Below are positions 7,462 through 15,210 of a stretch of 26,439 bases of DNA, in pieces. The stretch comes from a virus. The DNA lies in IMG/VR virus record IMGVR_UViG_3300006917_000129, positions 1 through 26,439 of that record. One strand, 5' to 3'. Position 1 is the stretch's first letter. Each line of letters opens with the position of its first letter. The position numbers and the translations under genes were made by a program. The notes below the pieces were generated by a model. The model saw only the letters and a list, made by a program, of their open reading frames with translations, did not search any database and was not told where the DNA came from.

Positions 7462-7559
7462 AGAAATTTTTTTTACTTGCAACTCTTGTAATTACATTGA
7501 TGTTCTTCGTTGTTAAGTTCGTGATGGATGCCATCATCGAACTAGAAGATGAGGACTAA
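7458..7559 (+). CDS. 33-residue membrane peptide
   Basis: A GTG at 7458 overlaps the preceding stop (GTGA) and the stop overlaps the next start (TAATG), so the peptide fills exactly the gap between two genes. The product is a basic start (MKKF), one membrane helix (FFLLATLVITLMFFVVKFVMDAI in parts) and an acidic end (IELEDED). Exact packing between two coupled genes and a sensible membrane-peptide composition support it as real despite its length. The function is unknown; the acidic tail would face the cytoplasm or the outside depending on orientation. Confidence 0.62.
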   Translation: MKKFFLLATLVITLMFFVVKFVMDAIIELEDED

Positions 7560-8200
7560 TGCAAGAGAAAGATCGTGCCGAAGATCATCTTGAAGATCTG
7601 ATTAGCATCTCCGCATCTCATGTCCATCGCAGGTTTGCTGGCTATGTAGAACGAGATGATTTAATCCAAGAGCTTCGAGTCTATGTACTGAACAGACCAC
7701 ACTTAGCCAAGATGTTAGATGAAGCATATGAGGTGAGCAAAGATGAAACCAAGTGGGTAGCAAGACGGATCATGGCACGACTACGCAGAACCATTGAGAA
7801 GTATTCTCGTAAAGAGAAAGCTGCAAAGCTAGGCTACTCAACAGGTGATGAGTTCTTCTACGATACAGCAACGATTGCAAAGATGTTGCCGGTGGCATTC
7901 GAGTTCGATACTCATGGTGCAGTACTGGTTGACAAGGTAGATGATGGAACACCACGCAAACCATCGGTGCCAAGTGAGGGTGGCAATATCTTGGCGATGG
8001 TGATTGATCTTCGGTCTGCCATTGATCTATTAGAGGTTGATGAGCAGGTGATGTTACGCAACAGATATTCCACTAGCCCTATGACTCTCTCTGAGATAGC
8101 AGAAGAGATGGGCATAAGTGATTCAACAGTAGATAGAAAGATTCAAGGCTCACTAAGAAAGATCATCGATCACTTAGGAGGGCCAACACCTTGGGTCTAA
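7559..8200 (+). CDS. Sigma-70-like factor (phage sigma or DNA-binding regulator)
   Basis: TAATG coupling to the peptide gene. The 213-residue product has two regions resembling sigma factors. The N-terminal part (residues 9-45, EDLISISASHVHRRFAGYVERDDLIQELRVYVL) looks like region 2, with the typical D-L-I-Q-E core. The C-terminus (about 160-205) has RNRYSTSPMTLSEIAEEMGISDSTVDRKIQGSLRKI, a clear region 4 helix-turn-helix. The middle (80-140) is divergent. It may direct RNA polymerase to phage promoters or act as a sigma-like regulator. As a WhiB-like protein is encoded in the same operon, and WhiB proteins bind sigma region 4, the two might act together, which is inference. Confidence 0.72.
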   Translation: MQEKDRAEDHLEDLISISASHVHRRFAGYVERDDLIQELRVYVLNRPHLAKMLDEAYEVSKDETKWVARRIMARLRRTIEKYSRKEKAAKLGYSTGDEFFYDTATIAKMLPVAFEFDTHGAVLVDKVDDGTPRKPSVPSEGGNILAMVIDLRSAIDLLEVDEQVMLRNRYSTSPMTLSEIAEEMGISDSTVDRKIQGSLRKIIDHLGGPTPWV

Positions 8201-8921: not shown

Positions 8922-9323
8922 CTATCTTCCGTATTCTTCCTTTAAGAACTTGCCGCAGTATGGCCATGGTTTGTAGCCACGATCTGCATAGATGTGGAGA
9001 GCAACCCAGAACTGTTCTCTGAGAGTGGCATCCTTTGCTGGGGTGCCGCTGCTGCCACCATGTGCAACCCAAGTCCGAGGGTATTCAATTTGAAATGCCC
9101 CTTGGAATTGTTTGCGTGTGCCGCTGACGGCATTCAGCCGACCATTAGACTCACACTTGGCAAGCTTTTGCCAAGCTAAAGGTAGGTCGGTAAGTTCGAT
9201 GTCCGACACGAATGGCGGCTCCGGTTTTACAACCGGAGGGATCACTAATACAACCGGCTCCCGAGGGGTTAGCGTTAAAGCTAACCCCATGGCAACCGCT
9301 CCGAGCATGAAGCGATGAAGCAT
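8922..9323 (-). CDS. Secreted Rpf-like muralytic enzyme (lysozyme/transglycosylase fold)
   Basis: The start codon at 9323 has TAGGAGGAT upstream on the minus strand. Residues 1-20 are a basic then hydrophobic leader (MLHRFMLGAVAMGLALTLT), a signal peptide or signal anchor, followed by a Pro/Val-rich linker to about 45. The rest is a resuscitation-promoting-factor type domain: LAWQKLAKCESNGRLNAVSG with the catalytic Glu58 directly after Cys57, FQGAFQIEYPRTW, then ATLREQFWVALHIYADRG and PWPYCGKF. Cys57 and Cys123 correspond to the conserved disulfide of Rpf domains. Rpf enzymes cleave actinobacterial peptidoglycan glycan strands. Being exported, it differs from the cytosolic CHAP enzyme at the left and may act early, at wall remodelling, or as a second lysin. 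Confidence 0.88.
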   Translation of the reverse strand: MLHRFMLGAVAMGLALTLTPREPVVLVIPPVVKPEPPFVSDIELTDLPLAWQKLAKCESNGRLNAVSGTRKQFQGAFQIEYPRTWVAHGGSSGTPAKDATLREQFWVALHIYADRGYKPWPYCGKFLKEEYGR

Positions 9324-9449
9324 CTATCCTCCTAACATTAGGGCCGCAGCTAATGCGGCGATCGGGATCGTGATTAGCAAGGGTTGGCCCTCGCTAATTC
9401 CCACCGGTAAGGTGAAGAAAATAAGAATGAATAAGATCAACCCGATCAA
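9324..9449 (-). CDS. 41-residue membrane peptide (holin candidate of the Rpf pair)
   Basis: The proposed start is a TTG at 9449-9447 that overlaps the stop of the zinc ribbon gene, with a near-perfect Shine-Dalgarno GGAGGTGAT ending a few bases upstream. The stop (9326-9324) abuts the ATG of the Rpf-like enzyme, which uses the GGAGGATAG at its end as ribosome site. The product is two hydrophobic helices (LIGLILFILIFFTLPVG and LLITIPIAALAAALMLGG) joined by a short polar turn (ISEGQP). The length is below most holins, but the place directly before a muralytic enzyme makes a holin or enzyme-partner role likely. Nothing else in this gap would explain the strong ribosome site. Confidence 0.66.
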   Translation of the reverse strand: MIGLILFILIFFTLPVGISEGQPLLITIPIAALAAALMLGG

Positions 9450-9598
9450 GCGATCACCTCCGAGATCGCTCCACATTCGGAGCATTCGGGGATCTTCTCC
9501 CCATTAGGCACCGGCTCCGGGTATTCCTTGCCGCATTCGCAGCGATAGGTATAAGGATAACAGCTCACGCAAGTATAGGCACCGCATCCGAAAGTCAT
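9446..9598 (-). CDS. Cys-rich zinc ribbon protein, 50 residues
   Basis: ATG at 9598 overlaps the upstream stop (TAATG). The product carries seven Cys: Cys5, Cys10, Cys13, Cys20, Cys22, Cys39 and Cys42. The pair YRCECGKEYP and the pair IPECSECGA form a normal zinc ribbon; the extra N-terminal GCGAYTCVSC may hold a second metal or be a remnant. The family is not recognised. Small zinc ribbons of this type often bind nucleic acids or protein partners. Coupled start and end place it in one transcript with the gp88-like gene and the Rpf pair. Confidence 0.68.
   Translation of the reverse strand: MTFGCGAYTCVSCYPYTYRCECGKEYPEPVPNGEKIPECSECGAISEVIA
9453..9461 (-). promoter_or_regulatory. Full-length Shine-Dalgarno deciding a TTG start
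   Basis: On the minus strand this reads GGAGGTGAT, complementary over its whole length to the 3' end of 16S rRNA, 3 bases before the TTG at 9449. Measured from the GGAGG core the spacing is 7 bases. It is the main reason to accept the 41-residue gene. Confidence 0.65.
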
Positions 9599-10410
9599 TA
9601 GGCCACCTCATAAATTAGCTTAGACCCGATCTTATGGATAGCCTTACCCTTAGCTCGCAAGGCTACGATTACACCTCGAGGATCTAAGGCCCGGAGATCG
9701 TGAAGATCTCCATCGATAACCGGTATCCCATGCCATCGATCGGGTACCGGAGATCCCTTATCGATCGGCATTACGATAGCGACATTCGCTCCGCTTGATA
9801 CCTTAGCTCCGATCTCTTCGATCGAATGGCCGGCGGCCGAAAAGGTTAATCGATAACCCGGCACCGGCTCGGGATCTCGATCCCACCGCTTCGAATAATC
9901 ATAGACGGCGGCACCTCCGGCGATAGCTCGATCGATCAACCATGGCGAAGCGATCTCCCATGCTAGATCGGAGGCGACATTTAACCGGAGCCCCCATTTA
10001 CCGAATGCTCGAGAGTATCGATCGACATCATGAGCTAATAAGATCGAAGCCGCTTCGGGTTGATCCATGAGCAGCGATACCCGGGCAGACCTTGCCCGGA
10101 TCACACTCTCGAATGCTCCCCGGCCATGCGTGAGAACACATAGATCCTTGCAATGCGTGAAGAATTTGCAAGTAGTGGCCGGGCCATAGGCGGCCGGCGT
10201 TAGGGTTAGCCCGGCGATACCGTAATAACCCGGCACCTCGAGGCTTAGCTTCTTATTACTATCCGATCGGATTAGATAGCTCGGCACCTTAAGGCCATGA
10301 GCTGCGAAGCTATCGGCCGCTAACCTCCGGGCCTTAGCTACATCGAGACCGGAGATCGAGCCGGGATCCGGAAGCGGATCCCTCTCTCTTATGTTGATTA
10401 GACTACGCAT
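9598..10410 (-). CDS. gp88-like actinophage protein with Cys cluster
   Basis: The 270-residue product is preceded by the repeated leader element at 10418-10436. It resembles the mycobacteriophage gene-88-like (GP88/DUF7227-like) group: a Gly/Thr-rich entry (GIAGLTLTPAAYGPATTC), a cysteine cluster TTCKFFTHCKDLC (Cys-x6-Cys-x3-Cys, about residues 80-92), then LRLNVASDLAWE, VYDYSKRWDR, a central RLTFSAAGHS segment, and the characteristic end WHGIPVIDGDLHDLRALDP followed by GVIVALRAKGKA. The cluster suggests an iron-sulfur or zinc site. Function is unknown for the group. It is not a known lysis, packaging or replication gene. It is the largest gene of the minus-strand island. The family call is from memory of its motifs. 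Confidence 0.68.
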   Translation of the reverse strand: MRSLINIRERDPLPDPGSISGLDVAKARRLAADSFAAHGLKVPSYLIRSDSNKKLSLEVPGYYGIAGLTLTPAAYGPATTCKFFTHCKDLCVLTHGRGAFESVIRARSARVSLLMDQPEAASILLAHDVDRYSRAFGKWGLRLNVASDLAWEIASPWLIDRAIAGGAAVYDYSKRWDRDPEPVPGYRLTFSAAGHSIEEIGAKVSSGANVAIVMPIDKGSPVPDRWHGIPVIDGDLHDLRALDPRGVIVALRAKGKAIHKIGSKLIYEVA

Positions 10411-10417
10411 AGATAAT

Positions 10418-10436
10418 TGATCCTTAATCTAGGTTA
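10418..10436 (-). repeat. Start-associated repeat, copy 1
   Basis: On the minus strand: TAACCTAGATTAAGGATCA, ending 7 bases before the ATG at 10410. The left 12 bases are a near-palindrome around CTAG and the right part supplies a GGAT Shine-Dalgarno. Identical to copy 2 over 19 bases. Confidence 0.8.
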
Positions 10437-10459
10437 GGCGAGGCGATCTCACCATGGCA

Positions 10460-10486
10460 AGGCCCGGAGCTAATAACCCCGGGCCT
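10460..10486 (-). terminator. Hairpin between minus-strand blocks 2 and 3
   Basis: AGGCCCG pairs with CGGGCCT across a 13-base loop. It lies just after the end of the second block (10504) and just before the third leader element. There is no T run on the minus strand, so termination is only likely, not clear. Confidence 0.45.
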
Positions 10487-10503
10487 CACTATGATTAGAC
10501 CGA

Positions 10504-10656
10504 TCAACCCACCTCCGGCCCGGCCCATGTAAGCCGGTAATCTACCGATGAAGCTGCGGAATTATCGAGATCGTTAATCTTCTCGATGGCCTTAGCTTCA
10601 CTCTCGGCGGTTATGTAATACCTCTCGATCTTCTCGATCTCGAATTCCCTAGTCAT
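10504..10656 (-). CDS. Small DpnD/PcfM-like protein, 50 residues
   Basis: ATG at 10656 follows the upstream stop directly (TAAATG). The product reads MTREFEIEKIERYYITAESE, then AKAIEKIND, and ends in a short strand YRLTWAGPEVG. The pattern of a strand, a second strand ending in xAxSE, and an Ala-rich helix is that of small DpnD/PcfM-like proteins of phages and plasmids, whose role is unknown. The 44-residue protein at 11040-11174 in the same block shows the same Y-x-I-x-A-x-S-E-x-K-A core, so the two may be paralogues. Confidence 0.66.
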   Translation of the reverse strand: MTREFEIEKIERYYITAESEAKAIEKINDLDNSAASSVDYRLTWAGPEVG

Positions 10657-10932
10657 TTAATCTTCCTCTCGATCGATGAAGCATTCGAGATGGTGGCCCT
10701 CGATTAGGGCCGAGACCGGAGCTTGATCCTTACCTCGCCACTTAACACCGGCCGGGAGATCGATAAGCTTGCTCCACTCTCGGGCCTTAGCTGCGTTAAT
10801 GGCGGCGATGCATGGATCCACCATCGAGAGAGGCACCGGCGGATAGTGATTACCGGTGAGATGATACGAGAGAGATCTCTCGAGGGTTAGATCCGGGTTA
10901 GAAGCTAGATCGGCGGCTAGATTATGGCCCAT
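10657..10932 (-). CDS. Conserved-type small actinophage protein, 91 residues
   Basis: ATG at 10932 directly follows the upstream stop. The product is soluble with no membrane span. Its centre, SLSYHLTGNHYPPVPLSMVD, then PCIAAINAAKAREWSKLIDLP, is of a kind I associate with small conserved proteins of actinobacteriophages of unknown function (Y-H-L...N-H-Y-P-P-V-P...M...P-C-I-A-A). It ends WRGKDQAPVSALIEGHHLECFIDREED in pieces. There is no catalytic signature. The match is from memory and needs a profile search. Confidence 0.68.
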   Translation of the reverse strand: MGHNLAADLASNPDLTLERSLSYHLTGNHYPPVPLSMVDPCIAAINAAKAREWSKLIDLPAGVKWRGKDQAPVSALIEGHHLECFIDREED

Positions 10933-11040
10933 TTATTCGATTACCTCGCAGACTTTCTCGCATTTATCGCAAGTGGAGGTATCTAAATCGACATAGGTTA
11001 CTGTCCAATCGCAGCAAGCACTACCTACCGGGCGGCTCAT
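10933..11040 (-). CDS. 35-residue Cys-rich peptide
   Basis: ATG at 11040 overlaps the upstream stop (TAATG), and the stop at 10933 abuts the next ATG. The product has Cys9-Cys10 and CDKCEKVC (Cys24, Cys27, Cys31), enough for a small zinc-binding knuckle. Exact fit between coupled genes on both sides is the main support; nothing is known of its role. Confidence 0.58.
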   Translation of the reverse strand: MSRPVGSACCDWTVTYVDLDTSTCDKCEKVCEVIE

Positions 11041-11174
11041 TACTTTACCTCCACTAGAAGCGTGTCACTATCTCGGAGGATAGCTTTATCGGTACCTAAT
11101 AGATCTCGAGCTTTATCCTCGGAGCTTGCTTCGATCTCATAAGTATTCATGACATTAAATAGATAGCTCGCCAT
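11040..11174 (-). CDS. Small DpnD/PcfM-like protein, 44 residues
   Basis: Coupled by TAATG to the gene upstream and downstream. The product starts MASYLFNVMNTYEIEASSED, then KARDLLGTDKAILRDSDTLLVEVK: a strand, a second strand with xAxSE, a helix, and a last strand. It shares this arrangement with the 50-residue protein at 10504-10656. Function is unknown. Confidence 0.6.
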   Translation of the reverse strand: MASYLFNVMNTYEIEASSEDKARDLLGTDKAILRDSDTLLVEVK

Positions 11175-11572
11175 TACTTAACCGCCTTAAGTAGATCCTT
11201 AAGCTCGGCCTTGATCGCTCGAGCTTGATCCCCTCGCCATGTTGTGAGATTAGCTAAGGCGTATCGAACGACACTCTCGGCGGTATCGGCGAAGAATTGA
11301 TCGGTGATCTTATTTAATCGAGACATGGCCTCGACATAATCTCGAGCATAGATCGAGCTATTAGATCGATACCATGGTGAGCCCATGATCTCCCCGGCGA
11401 TGGTTGAAAGTGATCGAGGCCCGGCCGGGATGGCCTTAGCTTGATCGCCTAGCGTGTCTCCGGTTTCGGCATCGATGACCATCAATAGCCCGGCATCGAG
11501 CATCGAGCGAACGAGATCCCCGGAGCCCCGGCGATCGGCTTCTTGCATAAATTGATCGGTGAAATTGCTCAT
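11174..11572 (-). CDS. Conserved-type actinophage protein, 132 residues
   Basis: First gene of the second minus-strand block, 6 bases after leader element copy 2. The C-terminal half, YVEAMSRLNKITDQFFADTA, VVRYALANLTTWRGDQARAI and KAELKDLLK, follows a pattern I know from many actinobacteriophage hypothetical proteins (A-M-x-x-L-x-x-I-T-D ... F-L-x-N-x-x-x-W-R-G-x-x-A-R-x-I-K-A-E-L). It is helical and soluble. No activity is known. As first gene of its block it is probably the most highly made product. The match is from memory. Confidence 0.72.
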   Translation of the reverse strand: MSNFTDQFMQEADRRGSGDLVRSMLDAGLLMVIDAETGDTLGDQAKAIPAGPRSLSTIAGEIMGSPWYRSNSSIYARDYVEAMSRLNKITDQFFADTAESVVRYALANLTTWRGDQARAIKAELKDLLKAVK

Positions 11573-11578
11573 TTAATT

Positions 11579-11597
11579 TGATCCTTAATCTAGGTTA
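11579..11597 (-). repeat. Start-associated repeat, copy 2
   Basis: Same 19 bases as copy 1 on the minus strand, ending 6 bases before the ATG at 11572. A 7-bp-stem hairpin lies 4 bases upstream. Confidence 0.82.
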
Positions 11598-11601
11598 AAT
11601 C

Positions 11602-11620
11602 GATACCGGCGATCGGTATC
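11602..11620 (-). terminator. Hairpin directly upstream of leader element copy 2
   Basis: GATACCG, loop GCGAT, CGGTATC. On the minus strand it is followed by GATTTAACC, a weak T stretch that merges with the repeated element. It may end the first block's transcript just before the second begins. Confidence 0.5.
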
Positions 11621-11627
11621 CCCGGAA

Positions 11628-11649
11628 GCTCGAGCCGCTAAGCTCGAGC
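11628..11649. repeat. CTCGAG-containing inverted repeat after the first block
   Basis: GCTCGAG pairs with CTCGAGC across an 8-base loop; each arm itself contains the palindrome CTCGAG. A further CCTCGAGG palindrome follows at about 11650-11657. The stack lies in the 99-base gap after the stop at 11672. Confidence 0.6.
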
Positions 11650-11671
11650 CCTCGAGGCTACTTATCGATAG

Positions 11672-11842
11672 CTAATCCTTAAGCTGCGTTAGATCTAACA
11701 CCTTAAGCTTACCCTCCGGGAGCTTCTCTTCGGTGGTGATCCACCATTCGAGGCCCTTTAATCGGTTAGATAAATCGCCATTTAATAGATCTCTCTTCTC
11801 GGGATCGTAATAAATCGCAACTAATACCCGGCTCACGCTCAT
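11672..11842 (-). CDS. Small hypothetical protein, 56 residues
   Basis: ATG at 11842 overlaps the upstream stop as ATGA. The product begins MSVSRVLVAIYYDPEKRDLL and continues with LKGLEWWITTEEKLPEGKLK; it looks like a compact alpha/beta domain with alternating strands and no membrane span. It is the last gene of the first minus-strand block. No family is recognised. Confidence 0.6.
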   Translation of the reverse strand: MSVSRVLVAIYYDPEKRDLLNGDLSNRLKGLEWWITTEEKLPEGKLKVLDLTQLKD

Positions 11843-12021
11843 TTATTCACCTCCCCCGGGAAATAGCAGCTCACCATTTCGCCGAAACAATAGTGATCTC
11901 CAACCCACCAGATCCGGCCGGATAGATACACGATCGCAGCGAATAACACGATCCCACCGATTAGCCCGGCCCATCGCCGGCGATAAACCGGCGAGCCTAG
12001 AATTCTTCGAACGGCCCTCAT
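11839..12021 (-). CDS. Small single-span membrane protein, 60 residues
   Basis: ATG at 12021 overlaps the upstream stop as ATGA, and the end overlaps the next start in the same way. A strongly basic N-terminus (MRAVRRILGSPVYRRRWAG) precedes one membrane helix (LIGGIVLFAAIVYLSGRIWW). The tail has two Cys (HYCFGEMVSCYF) that could be exported and disulfide-bonded under the positive-inside rule. The role is unknown; a membrane effector such as an exclusion peptide is possible but unproven. Confidence 0.66.
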   Translation of the reverse strand: MRAVRRILGSPVYRRRWAGLIGGIVLFAAIVYLSGRIWWVGDHYCFGEMVSCYFPGEVNK

Positions 12022-12254
12022 CGCTTCGCCTCCTCGATCTTCGAGATCGCATCGATAAGAAATCGGGCCAGACCTCGAGCAGCTCGAAGATCAAGCTCAA
12101 GCGTGATCGATGCGTGATCCGGATCGTTAGCATAACCTCGAGCCGCCACGATCGACACGCTCGAAGCCGGATCGTTAAACCATCCCGAGACATAATCCCG
12201 GGAGCCAACCGGAAGCGTAATCGCCTCGGCGATCGATACCATCTCCCGGCTCAT
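12018..12254 (-). CDS. Hypothetical protein, 78 residues
   Basis: Coupled by ATGA on both sides. The product has a strand-rich first half (VSIAEAITLPVGSRDYVSGW, SSVSIVAARGYAN, ASITLELDLRAA) and a C-terminal helix (RGLARFLIDAISKIEEAKR). It is soluble and without Cys. The fold pattern would fit a small beta-sheet domain with one helix. No family is recognised. Confidence 0.66.
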   Translation of the reverse strand: MSREMVSIAEAITLPVGSRDYVSGWFNDPASSVSIVAARGYANDPDHASITLELDLRAARGLARFLIDAISKIEEAKR

Positions 12255-12562
12255 GCTGCGGCCTCGATCGATAGCTTCTCGAGATGCTTACGGATAGCGG
12301 CTCGAGCTGCGGCCCCGGTGGCGTATTGTTGAAATTCCCCGAGATCCTCGATCCGGCCATTGATGCATTCGCGGATCGTGTAAAGGCGTGGCGATTGATG
12401 ATCGAATTGCTCGGAGGTAATGAAGAAGCGGCCACCATAGACGGCGGCTCCGATCCTCGAGCTAAAAAATCTCTTAGAAGCTGCATCGAAGAAATGGCCC
12501 CCGGTTGATCGATGATCGGCTTCGATCTCTTCGATGGTGGAATAAGTAGCGAATTTATTCAT
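12251..12562 (-). CDS. Conserved-type actinophage protein, 103 residues
   Basis: First gene of the first minus-strand block, 6 bases after leader element copy 3. The sequence TGGHFFDAASKRFFSSRIG, AAVYGGRFFITSEQFD, RLYTIRECINGRIEDLGEFQ and ATGAAARAAIRKHLEKL follows a pattern I know from actinobacterial phage and plasmid hypothetical proteins (R-F-F-x-S-R-[IV] ... Y-G-G-R-[YF]-F-[IV]-[ST]-S-E-x-F ... Y-T-I-R). The function of that group is unknown. The arrangement suggests a small beta-rich domain. The family call is from memory. Confidence 0.72.
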   Translation of the reverse strand: MNKFATYSTIEEIEADHRSTGGHFFDAASKRFFSSRIGAAVYGGRFFITSEQFDHQSPRLYTIRECINGRIEDLGEFQQYATGAAARAAIRKHLEKLSIEAAA

Positions 12563-12568
12563 GTTTTA

Positions 12569-12588
12569 TGATCCTTTAATCTAGGTTA
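12569..12588 (-). repeat. Start-associated repeat, copy 3
   Basis: Minus strand TAACCTAGATTAAAGGATCA, the same element with one extra A before the GGAT, ending 6 bases before the ATG at 12562. The extra base changes the length between the near-palindrome and the Shine-Dalgarno part. Confidence 0.8.
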
Positions 12589-12589
12589 A

Positions 12590-12607
12590 GGGATCCGGTT
12601 AGATCCC
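12590..12607 (-). repeat. Inverted repeat directly upstream of leader element copy 3
   Basis: GGGATC, loop CGGTTA, GATCCC. As with copy 2, a short dyad adjoins the repeated element on its upstream side. There is no gene to terminate here, which speaks for an operator or leader role. Confidence 0.5.
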
Positions 12608-12932
12608 CCGGGAGAATTACAACACGAGACCGGCACCCATTACAAGACTATTTCGAAAGTTTCTCGAGATTATTTCTCGGCCCGATCCGGTGAGATCTGC
12701 CCGGATCCATGGCCGGGATCGATGGCCGGAGATCTGCCCTCGATGTCTGCCGGGTAAGCATGGCCCCGAGCATGGCCCCGGATCCTCGAAGCTCCCTCGA
12801 TCATGCCGGCAAGCTCCCCGGATCTCATGCCCTAGATCTTAGGCGATTACTTAGATGTAGATCTTAAATCTGCCCCTAGTCATGGTCGGCCGGCCCGGCT
12901 TCATGTCTCCACGACACGCCGTAAAAGCTACT

Positions 12933-12945
12933 TAACATAATGTTA
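12933..12945. repeat. Dyad TAACAT-A-ATGTTA
   Basis: A perfect 6-bp inverted repeat around a single A, a normal operator size, lying between two copies of ACGACACGC. It may bind a regulator of the leftward genes. Confidence 0.5.
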
Positions 12946-13101
12946 GTTATCGGCTTATAGGGGTACGACACGCAGCACAGACAAATTGACCCGGGTGCTT
13001 AAAATGCCGGTATGCCCTGTATATATGTACCCAGAAAAAAATTTTTGATAGGATCCCGAGCTGTAAAATAGGCTCTGACCAGCACTTTTACTTACAATGG
13101 C

Positions 13102-13131
13102 TTGTATGTGATGCAAATCACACAGGATAAT
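13102..13131 (+). promoter_or_regulatory. Candidate promoter of the terminase/structural operon
   Basis: TTGTAT (13102-13107) and GATAAT (13126-13131) are separated by 18 bases. The -10 is a 5/6 match to TATAAT. Transcription would start near 13138, giving a leader of about 220 bases before the terminase ATG. No other pair in the region fits as well. Confidence 0.55.
13107..13122. promoter_or_regulatory. Crp/GlxR-type binding site inside the promoter
   Basis: TGTGA-TGCAAA-TCACA is an exact match to the TGTGA-N6-TCACA consensus of Crp-family regulators, including actinobacterial GlxR and Crp. It lies between the -35 and -10, where a bound protein would normally repress. Confidence 0.6.
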
Positions 13132-13133
13132 GT

Positions 13134-13154
13134 GGGATAAAACCCATTTATCCC
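13134..13154. repeat. Dyad GGGATAAA-ACCCA-TTTATCCC over the start point
   Basis: A perfect 8-bp inverted repeat beginning 3 bases after the -10. As DNA it would be an operator over the start point; as RNA a hairpin at the transcript's 5' end. Confidence 0.6.
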
Positions 13155-13176
13155 GGCTTATATATAGTAGGAGGAT

Positions 13177-13195
13177 ATATTCCGACTAGGAATAT
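13177..13195. repeat. Dyad ATATTCC-GACTA-GGAATAT
   Basis: A perfect 7-bp inverted repeat with 5-base loop in the leader before the terminase. It follows the sequence TAGGAGGAT, which looks like a ribosome site but has no start codon in range. Confidence 0.55.
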
Positions 13196-13206
13196 AGACG
13201 ACTACA

Positions 13207-13225
13207 CCGGCTCTTAGGGAGCCGG
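13207..13225. repeat. Dyad CCGGCTC-TTAGG-GAGCCGG
   Basis: A perfect GC-rich 7-bp inverted repeat. No T run follows, so a terminator is unlikely; a leader hairpin or packaging-site element is possible. Confidence 0.55.
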
Positions 13226-13226
13226 A

Positions 13227-13252
13227 GCGAGCCCTTGCGAGCGAAGGCGAGC
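13227..13252. repeat. Three GCGAGC hexamers at 10-base spacing
   Basis: GCGAGC begins at 13227, 13237 and 13247, on the same face of the helix. CCTT and AAGG around the middle copy form a small dyad. Phased repeats about 100 bases before a terminase gene suggest a protein-binding array such as a packaging site. Confidence 0.6.
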
Positions 13253-13356
13253 TAAATACCCCTAGTAAATGCCCAGTAGTCTGTTCTTTTTAAGAACCCC
13301 GAAACCCAATGAAAAATCTTTGGCGGCCACGCCGGCGGAGCCGGCGAGGAGGAGCT

Positions 13357-15210
13357 ATGAGTAAACAAGAAGAAACAGCCAAGATCAAAGCGAAAGTGAT
13401 TCGGCTGATTACAGAGGGTTGCACAGTCGAAGATGCCATGAGGCAGGTCGGCAGGTCAGCAAAGCTCTGGGAGTACTACCGTTCTACGGACAAAGAGTTC
13501 AAGGAAACTGTAGACAAGGTTCGTGCCGCTAGATCAAAGCATGGCCGTATCCAGTCTGAGGAATCCCTCCAGTTAGATTTTCGTACTTTCCGCAAGGAGT
13601 ACCTAGAGGCTGACACATTCCCTCACCAGATGAATATCATCGACCTTCTCGAAGGCCGTGACCCAGCATGGATGCATACATCAATGCATTATGAAAAGGG
13701 TCGCCCACAGTATGTGCTGGTGAATGTGCCACCTGAACACGCCAAGTCGATGACTACCTCGATTGACTATCCGGTTTACCGGATCTGTATGGATCCGAAT
13801 GTCCGTATCATGATTGTCTCGAAGTCACAGCAGAAGGCAACAGAATTTATCTACGCTATCAAGCAGCGTTTGACTCACCCATCATGGCAGAAGCTACAAC
13901 TTGCCTACGCCGCTGGCTCTGGGTTTAAGTCCAAGTCTGCTACATGGCAAGCTACGCAGGTCTACCTTGGAGACGAACTCCGTGACTCAGACCAGAAGGA
14001 TCCTACGATTCAAGCCATTGGTATCGGAGGACAGGTGTACGGTGCGAGAGCCGACCTGATTATTCTTGACGACTGCGTAACTATGTCAAATGCCCACGAA
14101 TACGAGAAGCAGATTCGTTGGATCCAGCAGGAAGTCCTAACTCGTCTTGGGCCTACCGGCAAGCTTTTAGTTTTGGGAACTCGAGTAGATTCCATTGACC
14201 TCTATAGAGAACTCCGTAACGGAGAACGCTATCCGACTGGTCAATCACCTTGGACATATCTGGCCATGCCAGCAGTTCTTGAATTCGGTGAATCTACTGA
14301 CGACTGGAAAACTCTCTGGCCTAAATCAGACCGCCCTTGGCAGGGCAGCGATGAAGAACCAGACGAGAACGGTCTATACCCACGCTGGGATGGTAAGTAT
14401 CTATCTATGCGTAGAGGTGCATTAGATCCTAAAACTTGGTCGATGGTCTATCAGCAAGCTGATGTGGATGAAGATTCCACCTTCAACATTACTTGCGTTA
14501 AAGGTTCTATCGACAGAATGCGAATGATCGGGCCTATCGTTCCGGGCAACCCCGGACACCCCGAGACATCAGAAGGTCTCACCATCGTTGCCGGGCTTGA
14601 CCCAGCAATAGTTGGTGATACGGCGGCAGTTGTTATGGCTATAGATCGCCGGCGGAAGAAACGCTATGTTTTGGATGCTGCGACTATCACTAAACCGTCA
14701 CCGCAAGCCATCCGTGATCTCATCACTACATTTACGGAGAAGTACAGACCATCAGAATGGATGGTCGAACGCAACGCCTTTCAGGGTTATCTGACACAGG
14801 ATGAGAATTTACGGCAATGGTTAGCAAGTCGTGGTGTGCTTCTTAGAGAACACACTACACACAGAAACAAGTGGGATGTTGGATTTGGTGTGGCTGCAAT
14901 GGCTTCCTTATTTGGAAGCGTTGAATCCAATGGTAAGCACCATCGAGATAACTTGATGCACTTACCGTCAGACCGACACGAAGGCATCCGACTACTTATT
15001 GACCAGTTAGTAACTTGGTCACCAGAGACAAAGAACAAGACAGACCTTGTTATGGCTCTGTGGTTCTGTGAGATCAGAGCAAGAGAAATCTGCCAGTTCG
15101 GTGAGTATGGCGGAAAGTTTGTACATAATGAATTCCTCACCCGAGCAGATGCTGCTAAGCGACAGGTCGTTAATCTTGACGAGTGGGCCGCAGATCGCCG
15201 ATTGGCATAA
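13357..15210 (+). CDS. Terminase large subunit
   Basis: The start is the ATG at 13357 after GAGGAGGAG; the in-frame ATG at 13309 would add an unnatural Arg-rich leader. The 617-residue product has an N-terminal helix-turn-helix segment (VIRLITEGCTVEDAMRQVGR, 15-34), often part of the small subunit. The ATPase follows: Walker A PPEHAKS (125-131), Walker B LIILDD (234-239) and a coupling motif LLVLGTR (270-276). The nuclease domain has VAGLDPAIVGDTAAV (Asp415) and VERNAFQ with the second acidic residue. It cuts concatemeric DNA and drives it into the capsid through the portal. The small-subunit-like head may explain why no separate small terminase gene is seen. It opens the rightward structural operon. 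Confidence 0.92.
   Translation: MSKQEETAKIKAKVIRLITEGCTVEDAMRQVGRSAKLWEYYRSTDKEFKETVDKVRAARSKHGRIQSEESLQLDFRTFRKEYLEADTFPHQMNIIDLLEGRDPAWMHTSMHYEKGRPQYVLVNVPPEHAKSMTTSIDYPVYRICMDPNVRIMIVSKSQQKATEFIYAIKQRLTHPSWQKLQLAYAAGSGFKSKSATWQATQVYLGDELRDSDQKDPTIQAIGIGGQVYGARADLIILDDCVTMSNAHEYEKQIRWIQQEVLTRLGPTGKLLVLGTRVDSIDLYRELRNGERYPTGQSPWTYLAMPAVLEFGESTDDWKTLWPKSDRPWQGSDEEPDENGLYPRWDGKYLSMRRGALDPKTWSMVYQQADVDEDSTFNITCVKGSIDRMRMIGPIVPGNPGHPETSEGLTIVAGLDPAIVGDTAAVVMAIDRRRKKRYVLDAATITKPSPQAIRDLITTFTEKYRPSEWMVERNAFQGYLTQDENLRQWLASRGVLLREHTTHRNKWDVGFGVAAMASLFGSVESNGKHHRDNLMHLPSDRHEGIRLLIDQLVTWSPETKNKTDLVMALWFCEIRAREICQFGEYGGKFVHNEFLTRADAAKRQVVNLDEWAADRRLA

Follow-up and report, generated by a model that had tools for sequence, protein, structure and literature searches.

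The intergenic region upstream of the terminase large subunit gene (terL) of this virus carries a perfect palindrome of the Crp/GlxR type, which raises the question of whether a host regulator reads it and in which direction such a regulator would act on the packaging and structural genes. The window analysed here is a 26.4-kb IMG/VR virus record, in which sites were scored against TGTGA-N6-TCACA over 10 positions. The putative operator TGTGATGCAAATCACA (13107..13122, assigned to neither strand; centre 13114.5, about −60.5 with respect to the start predicted below) matches at all 10 positions, as the original prediction of an exact Crp/GlxR-type site had stated, and is the sole such match within the whole window. 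It lies in non-coding DNA between the leftward genes, which end at 12562, and the terminase gene. Under a first-order Markov model, a perfect site would arise in this 746-bp intergenic region with a probability of about 1e-4, which agrees with the earlier claim that a chance match is unlikely; conservation provides far stronger evidence. The dyad is neither an artefact nor a chance match.

A terminase search yielded 80 related viral contigs, 77 of them with at least 200 bp of upstream sequence. Within 600 bp of terL, 69 of these 77 relatives carry the dyad with no more than one mismatch, down to 55% terminase identity; the remaining eight show none in that interval. The Streptomyces Beephvirinae phages Manuel, Fabian and Abafar (43–44% terminase identity) carry two dyads in the same place. 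Conservation in related phages, which had been named as a way of checking the site, is thus borne out. Every inverted repeat with 5-base arms and a spacer of 5, 6 or 7 bases (3,072 motifs) was ranked over 49 dereplicated 500-bp terminase upstream regions; TGTGA-N6 came first, with at least 9 of 10 positions matched at 42 of the 49 loci, 21 of them perfect, against a background of 0.84 loci on average (sd 1.76). In a set of 56 dereplicated elements, the dyad arms are near-invariant while the inner N6 varies; because this set was pre-filtered on the dyad, the unbiased figure is that of the motif ranking (42/49). Nearly whole freshwater phage records hold one or two near-perfect sites each, the terL-upstream one among them, and Streptomyces and E7/F5 phage records hold two to five each. 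The site is absent from prophages in Streptomyces hoynatensis, Phytoactinopolyspora and Lentzea, and the terminase relatives found in genome contigs were confined to distant prophages and a single phage contig that had been binned with a beta-proteobacterium. Judged by these comparisons, the dyad is shared across a large actinophage group from freshwater and soil.

Close relatives (77–85% identical DNA) also conserve much of the flanking sequence, as would be expected if the dyad were a chance palindrome or a phylogenetic leftover without function. However, the pattern of kept arms and varying inner bases extends into the Streptomyces phages, and the first rank among the 3,072 motifs contradicts such a reading, which we regard as extremely improbable. 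A role as an RNA hairpin was rejected on other grounds: the arm changes AGTGA, TGTGT and TGTGG face an intact TCACA and are uncompensated, so that the dyad looks like a DNA site for a protein and not like an RNA stem.

The original prediction placed the dyad inside the spacer of a terminase promoter, TTGTAT-N18-GATAAT on the plus strand (13102..13131; TTGTAT 13102-13107, GATAAT 13126-13131). Both hexamers are present in the window, but they are not conserved even among 14 close relatives, and we take them to be a coincidence of the window sequence. The conserved elements 3' of the dyad are an inverted repeat and, directly after it, TTATATATAGTAG (box core TATATATAGTA). The corresponding promoter box of the window, TTATATATAGTA (13158..13169, plus strand), contains the −10 hexamer TATAGT at 13163-13168, 40 bp downstream of the dyad, and this part of the original prediction therefore has to be given up. 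The counterpart of the box in Streptomyces phages is TATATATAATGGGG or TATATATACTGGGG, located after two dyads and a hairpin. We predict that the promoter consists of a strong −10 box, TATATATAGT, without a −35 consensus. Since TATAGT is a good −10 hexamer, transcription is predicted to start near 13175, which would place the dyad centre at about −60.5, a class I position (centre about −61.5 or further upstream). Dyad-to-−10 gaps in dereplicated loci fall only at 33–34, 39–41 or 52–55 bp, with 40 bp in the window and 40–41 bp for the proximal dyad of the Streptomyces Beephvirinae phages.

These positions bear on whether host Crp bound to the dyad would instead repress the terminase promoter and keep the late genes silent until the cAMP level drops. 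The dyad does overlap a sigma70-like −35/−10 pair in the window, and Crp/GlxR proteins can repress, as cAMP-CRP lowers pir expression in phage T1 (PMC6737242). Yet the overlapped hexamers are the unconserved ones, and the conserved −10, at 40 bp, is too distant for a steric block. Further evidence on the direction of regulation comes from the sister clade of phages E7 and F5, which were isolated on 'Ca. Planktophila' LanE-43 of the order Nanopelagicales (PMC10202952). The E7/F5 terminase is 50% identical to that of the window, and a perfect dyad occurs in 44 of the 58 E7/F5 relatives whose upstream sequence was long enough (a count that includes E7 and F5), usually 650–750 bp before terL. Most of these dyads face leftward sigma70 promoters, in which a −10-like hexamer stands 16–18 bp from a TTGACA or TTGACT. 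Across 29 dereplicated promoters, the gap between dyad and −35 is 10–12 bp (14 promoters), 21 bp (7) or 30–31 bp (5), with single cases at 0, 27 and 43 bp; phasing at 10.5 bp gives a Rayleigh R of 0.89, which 0 of 20,000 random draws reach. An upstream activator in contact with RNA polymerase is expected to show such spacing by whole turns. The gaps in the E7/F5 clade therefore point to activation and provide comparative evidence for the dyad as a working activator site. Such an activation signature upstream of consensus −35 boxes also counts against repression, which we consider unlikely; with the window's dyad at a predicted activator position, the repressive role originally inferred is not supported. 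The phasing could not be extended to all terL promoters: two of their gap classes, 34 and 54, lie two helical turns from each other and in phase with the sister-clade promoters, whereas the 40-bp class (39–41 bp; the window and the Streptomyces phages) lies about half a helical turn off both.

On the host side, a Crp-type helix-turn-helix (HTH; E ≤ 1e-13) was detected in 285 of 297 sampled Actinomycetes genomes. We infer that the host of the window phage is a Nanopelagicales-like actinobacterium. A host-like set of 12 Actinomycetes genomes was chosen by class, size and GC (1.2–1.5 Mb, GC 36–49% at fetched loci; G043, G062, G080, G109, G143, G163, G173, G246, G255, G264, G273 and G305). These genomes resemble Nanopelagicales in size and GC, and each encodes one GlxR-like Crp with the recognition helix GASRETVNKALADFA. 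The hosts, among them the presumed host of the window phage, very probably possess a GlxR-type Crp. GTGA-N6-TCAC occurs 71 times in total in the 12 genomes, compared with 490 occurrences for the N5 and 346 for the N7 spacer, which makes it 5–7 times rarer, and the full TGTGA-N6-TCACA occurs once in 13 small genomes (six of them among the 12). The residual host-genome sites without inner GTGAA/TTCAC, of which a few were inspected, lie mostly within genes. These counts suggest that the 12 small genomes avoid strong Crp sites genome-wide. Avoidance at N6 only is as expected for binding by a host protein and hence supports Crp as the reader of the dyad.

The reader could also be a regulator encoded by the phage that mimics Crp in its motif, in which case no host signal would be sensed, since phages often encode their own regulators and the window itself encodes a sigma70-region-4-like protein (7559-8200). 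However, neither the window nor 20 phage records encode a Crp-type HTH above the cut-off, and the motif is the exact actinobacterial Crp consensus, which the presumed host-like genomes avoid at the N6 spacing only. This makes a phage regulator quite improbable.

Based on this evidence, we propose with a probability of about 0.72 that host Crp/GlxR activates the terminase/late promoter, including the leader RNA and the structural operon, from the dyad at about −60.5. The following hypothetical steps would be involved: (i) a Crp dimer of the host binds the dyad; (ii) the bound Crp recruits RNA polymerase to the −10-only promoter, possibly in a cAMP-dependent manner; (iii) transcription then yields the structured leader RNA and the terminase/structural operon. 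The broader idea of the original prediction, namely a Crp/GlxR-type operator at the terminase promoter that ties phage genes to the host's cAMP regulator, is retained in this proposal, as the site is conserved and a GlxR-type Crp is very probable in the hosts.

Between the operator and the −10, at the −35 position, lies the inverted repeat GGGATAAA-accca-TTTATCCC (13134..13154, plus strand), and an inverted repeat stands in the same place in about 150 relatives. Its pairing is kept while its sequence varies between phages: over 7 pairs in 53 dereplicated loci, 79% are Watson–Crick, a value reached by 0 of 2000 shuffles, and the Streptomyces phages have a hairpin of unrelated sequence at the same place. 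A rightward intrinsic terminator was rejected for want of a T-tract in the window. The repeat might instead terminate transcription leftward, serve as an operator or form a hairpin; the G-U versus A-C count (45 to 18) slightly favours plus-strand RNA but is not decisive.

Immediately downstream, a structured 5' leader RNA is predicted on the plus strand (13169..13288), with a 5' hairpin followed by a multibranch domain closed by GACTAC/GTAGTC. The model comprises 31 consensus pairs, 13 of which show double compensatory changes, over eight relatives. This compact leader with its strong covariation was noted in the window and in the relatives L001, L003, L007, L008, L009, L011 and L012. A comparison of the leader with Rfam returned no family above gathering, and a tRNA search was likewise empty. 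Other phage subgroups have longer, different structured leaders, and at one locus (L017) a tRNA-like sequence is present in the leader, about 60 bp before terL and between the promoter and the terminase. The terminase large subunit gene itself is listed at 13309..15210 on the plus strand (phrog_38, E=1.2e-66); its true start is likely the ATG at 13357, which follows AGGAGGAG-N3, and not the listed ATG at 13309.

The position of the operator within the phage genome can be estimated from relatives. In phage Manuel, a 276-bp terminal repeat (MG518519 1-276) stops 30 bp before the first dyad, the direct repeat ending at the junction of GGGGAGGAGTG and AGTCCCC; in the Abafar record, the terminal repeat extends to the TATATA box. 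Freshwater relatives carry a similar element, AGTGAGATCCC, and contigs of relatives frequently start no more than 250 bp before the dyad. The interval 12563-13107 is a probable terminal-repeat or genome-end region. Because of the Manuel repeat end and the contig starts, the operator is probably located just inside the left genome end, where it would head the rightward operon. The same repeat ends and contig starts would also fit a packaging or genome-end signal (a terminal-repeat boundary, cos or pac), with the dyad as the recognition site of the terminase. Against this, the dyad lies outside the Manuel repeat, the E7/F5-clade dyads accompany leftward sigma70 promoters at helical spacings, and host-like genomes avoid the motif, which corresponds to a site for a host regulator. 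A packaging role therefore appears very improbable, and activation by host Crp remains the preferred reading. Two further features of the window were recorded. The plus-strand gene at 7559-8200 has a weak match to sigma70 region 4 and possibly encodes a sigma-like factor of the phage; such factors have been reported in Planktophila phages. The leftward gene block at 9000-12560 differs from the rest of the genome in its higher GC content (53%) and in how very often GATC/TCGA occurs.

Nanopelagicales-type actinobacteria are among the most abundant freshwater bacteria, and their phages are, to our knowledge, nearly unstudied. The first two isolates were described in 2023 (PMC10202952). A host-Crp site at the packaging operon, shared from freshwater to Streptomyces phages, would constitute a testable link between the carbon and energy state of the host and the late genes of the phage. 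In addition, the avoidance of GTGA-N6-TCAC offers a way of inferring the specificity of Crp in hard-to-culture, streamlined bacteria. More tentatively, the phage sites, stronger than nearly all sites in a consensus-avoiding host genome, may divert the host's sole Crp as the phage genome multiplies, as well as read the cAMP state; we consider this conceivable but doubtful. If true, the phage would both sense cAMP and divert a global regulator, the subgroups differing in which operon, the leftward or the terminase one, carries the site.

In comparison with known systems, a close geometry is that of the class I CRP promoter lacP1 of Escherichia coli, in which the operator-to-−10 gap is about 41 bp and the operator is centred at −61.5. 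The phage promoter is similar, with a gap of 40 bp, a centre at about −60.5 and a −35 that is poor or absent, but it differs from lacP1 in the inverted repeat in the −35 zone and in two further spacing classes, and the phase of the sister clade deviates from that of lacP1 by several bp. In Corynebacterium glutamicum, GlxR activates at TGTGA-N6-TCACA, for example at ldhA (PMC7999487), where the same operator as in the phage promoter is used from an upstream position. In contrast to ldhA, the putative phage operator is perfect in the window and precedes a terminase/late operon. In one E. coli phage, T1, cAMP-CRP inhibits the pir promoter, which belongs to a regulator gene of the lysogeny–lysis switch (PMC6737242). 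There, as predicted for the actinophages from their sequences, host CRP reads the metabolic state at a phage promoter; however, the effect in T1 is negative, whereas the actinophage site is perfect, conserved group-wide and placed in a geometry that points to activation. In alphaproteobacterial phages, CtrA sites are concentrated in promoter regions, a pattern discussed as 'lytic deferment' (PMC9437464). That system resembles ours in that sites for a host master regulator, in our case predicted ones upstream of terL, were found at phage promoters by comparative genomics, and it differs in the regulator (Crp for the actinophages), the hosts and the number of sites, with usually one or two per genome and no dense cluster in the actinophages. 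A limited literature search found no paper joining GlxR and a phage terminase. Host CRP at a phage promoter (T1 pir) and host CtrA sites in phage promoters were thus already known; new, in our reading, is a near-universal Crp site with phased spacing at the terminase or leftward operon of a group of actinophages.
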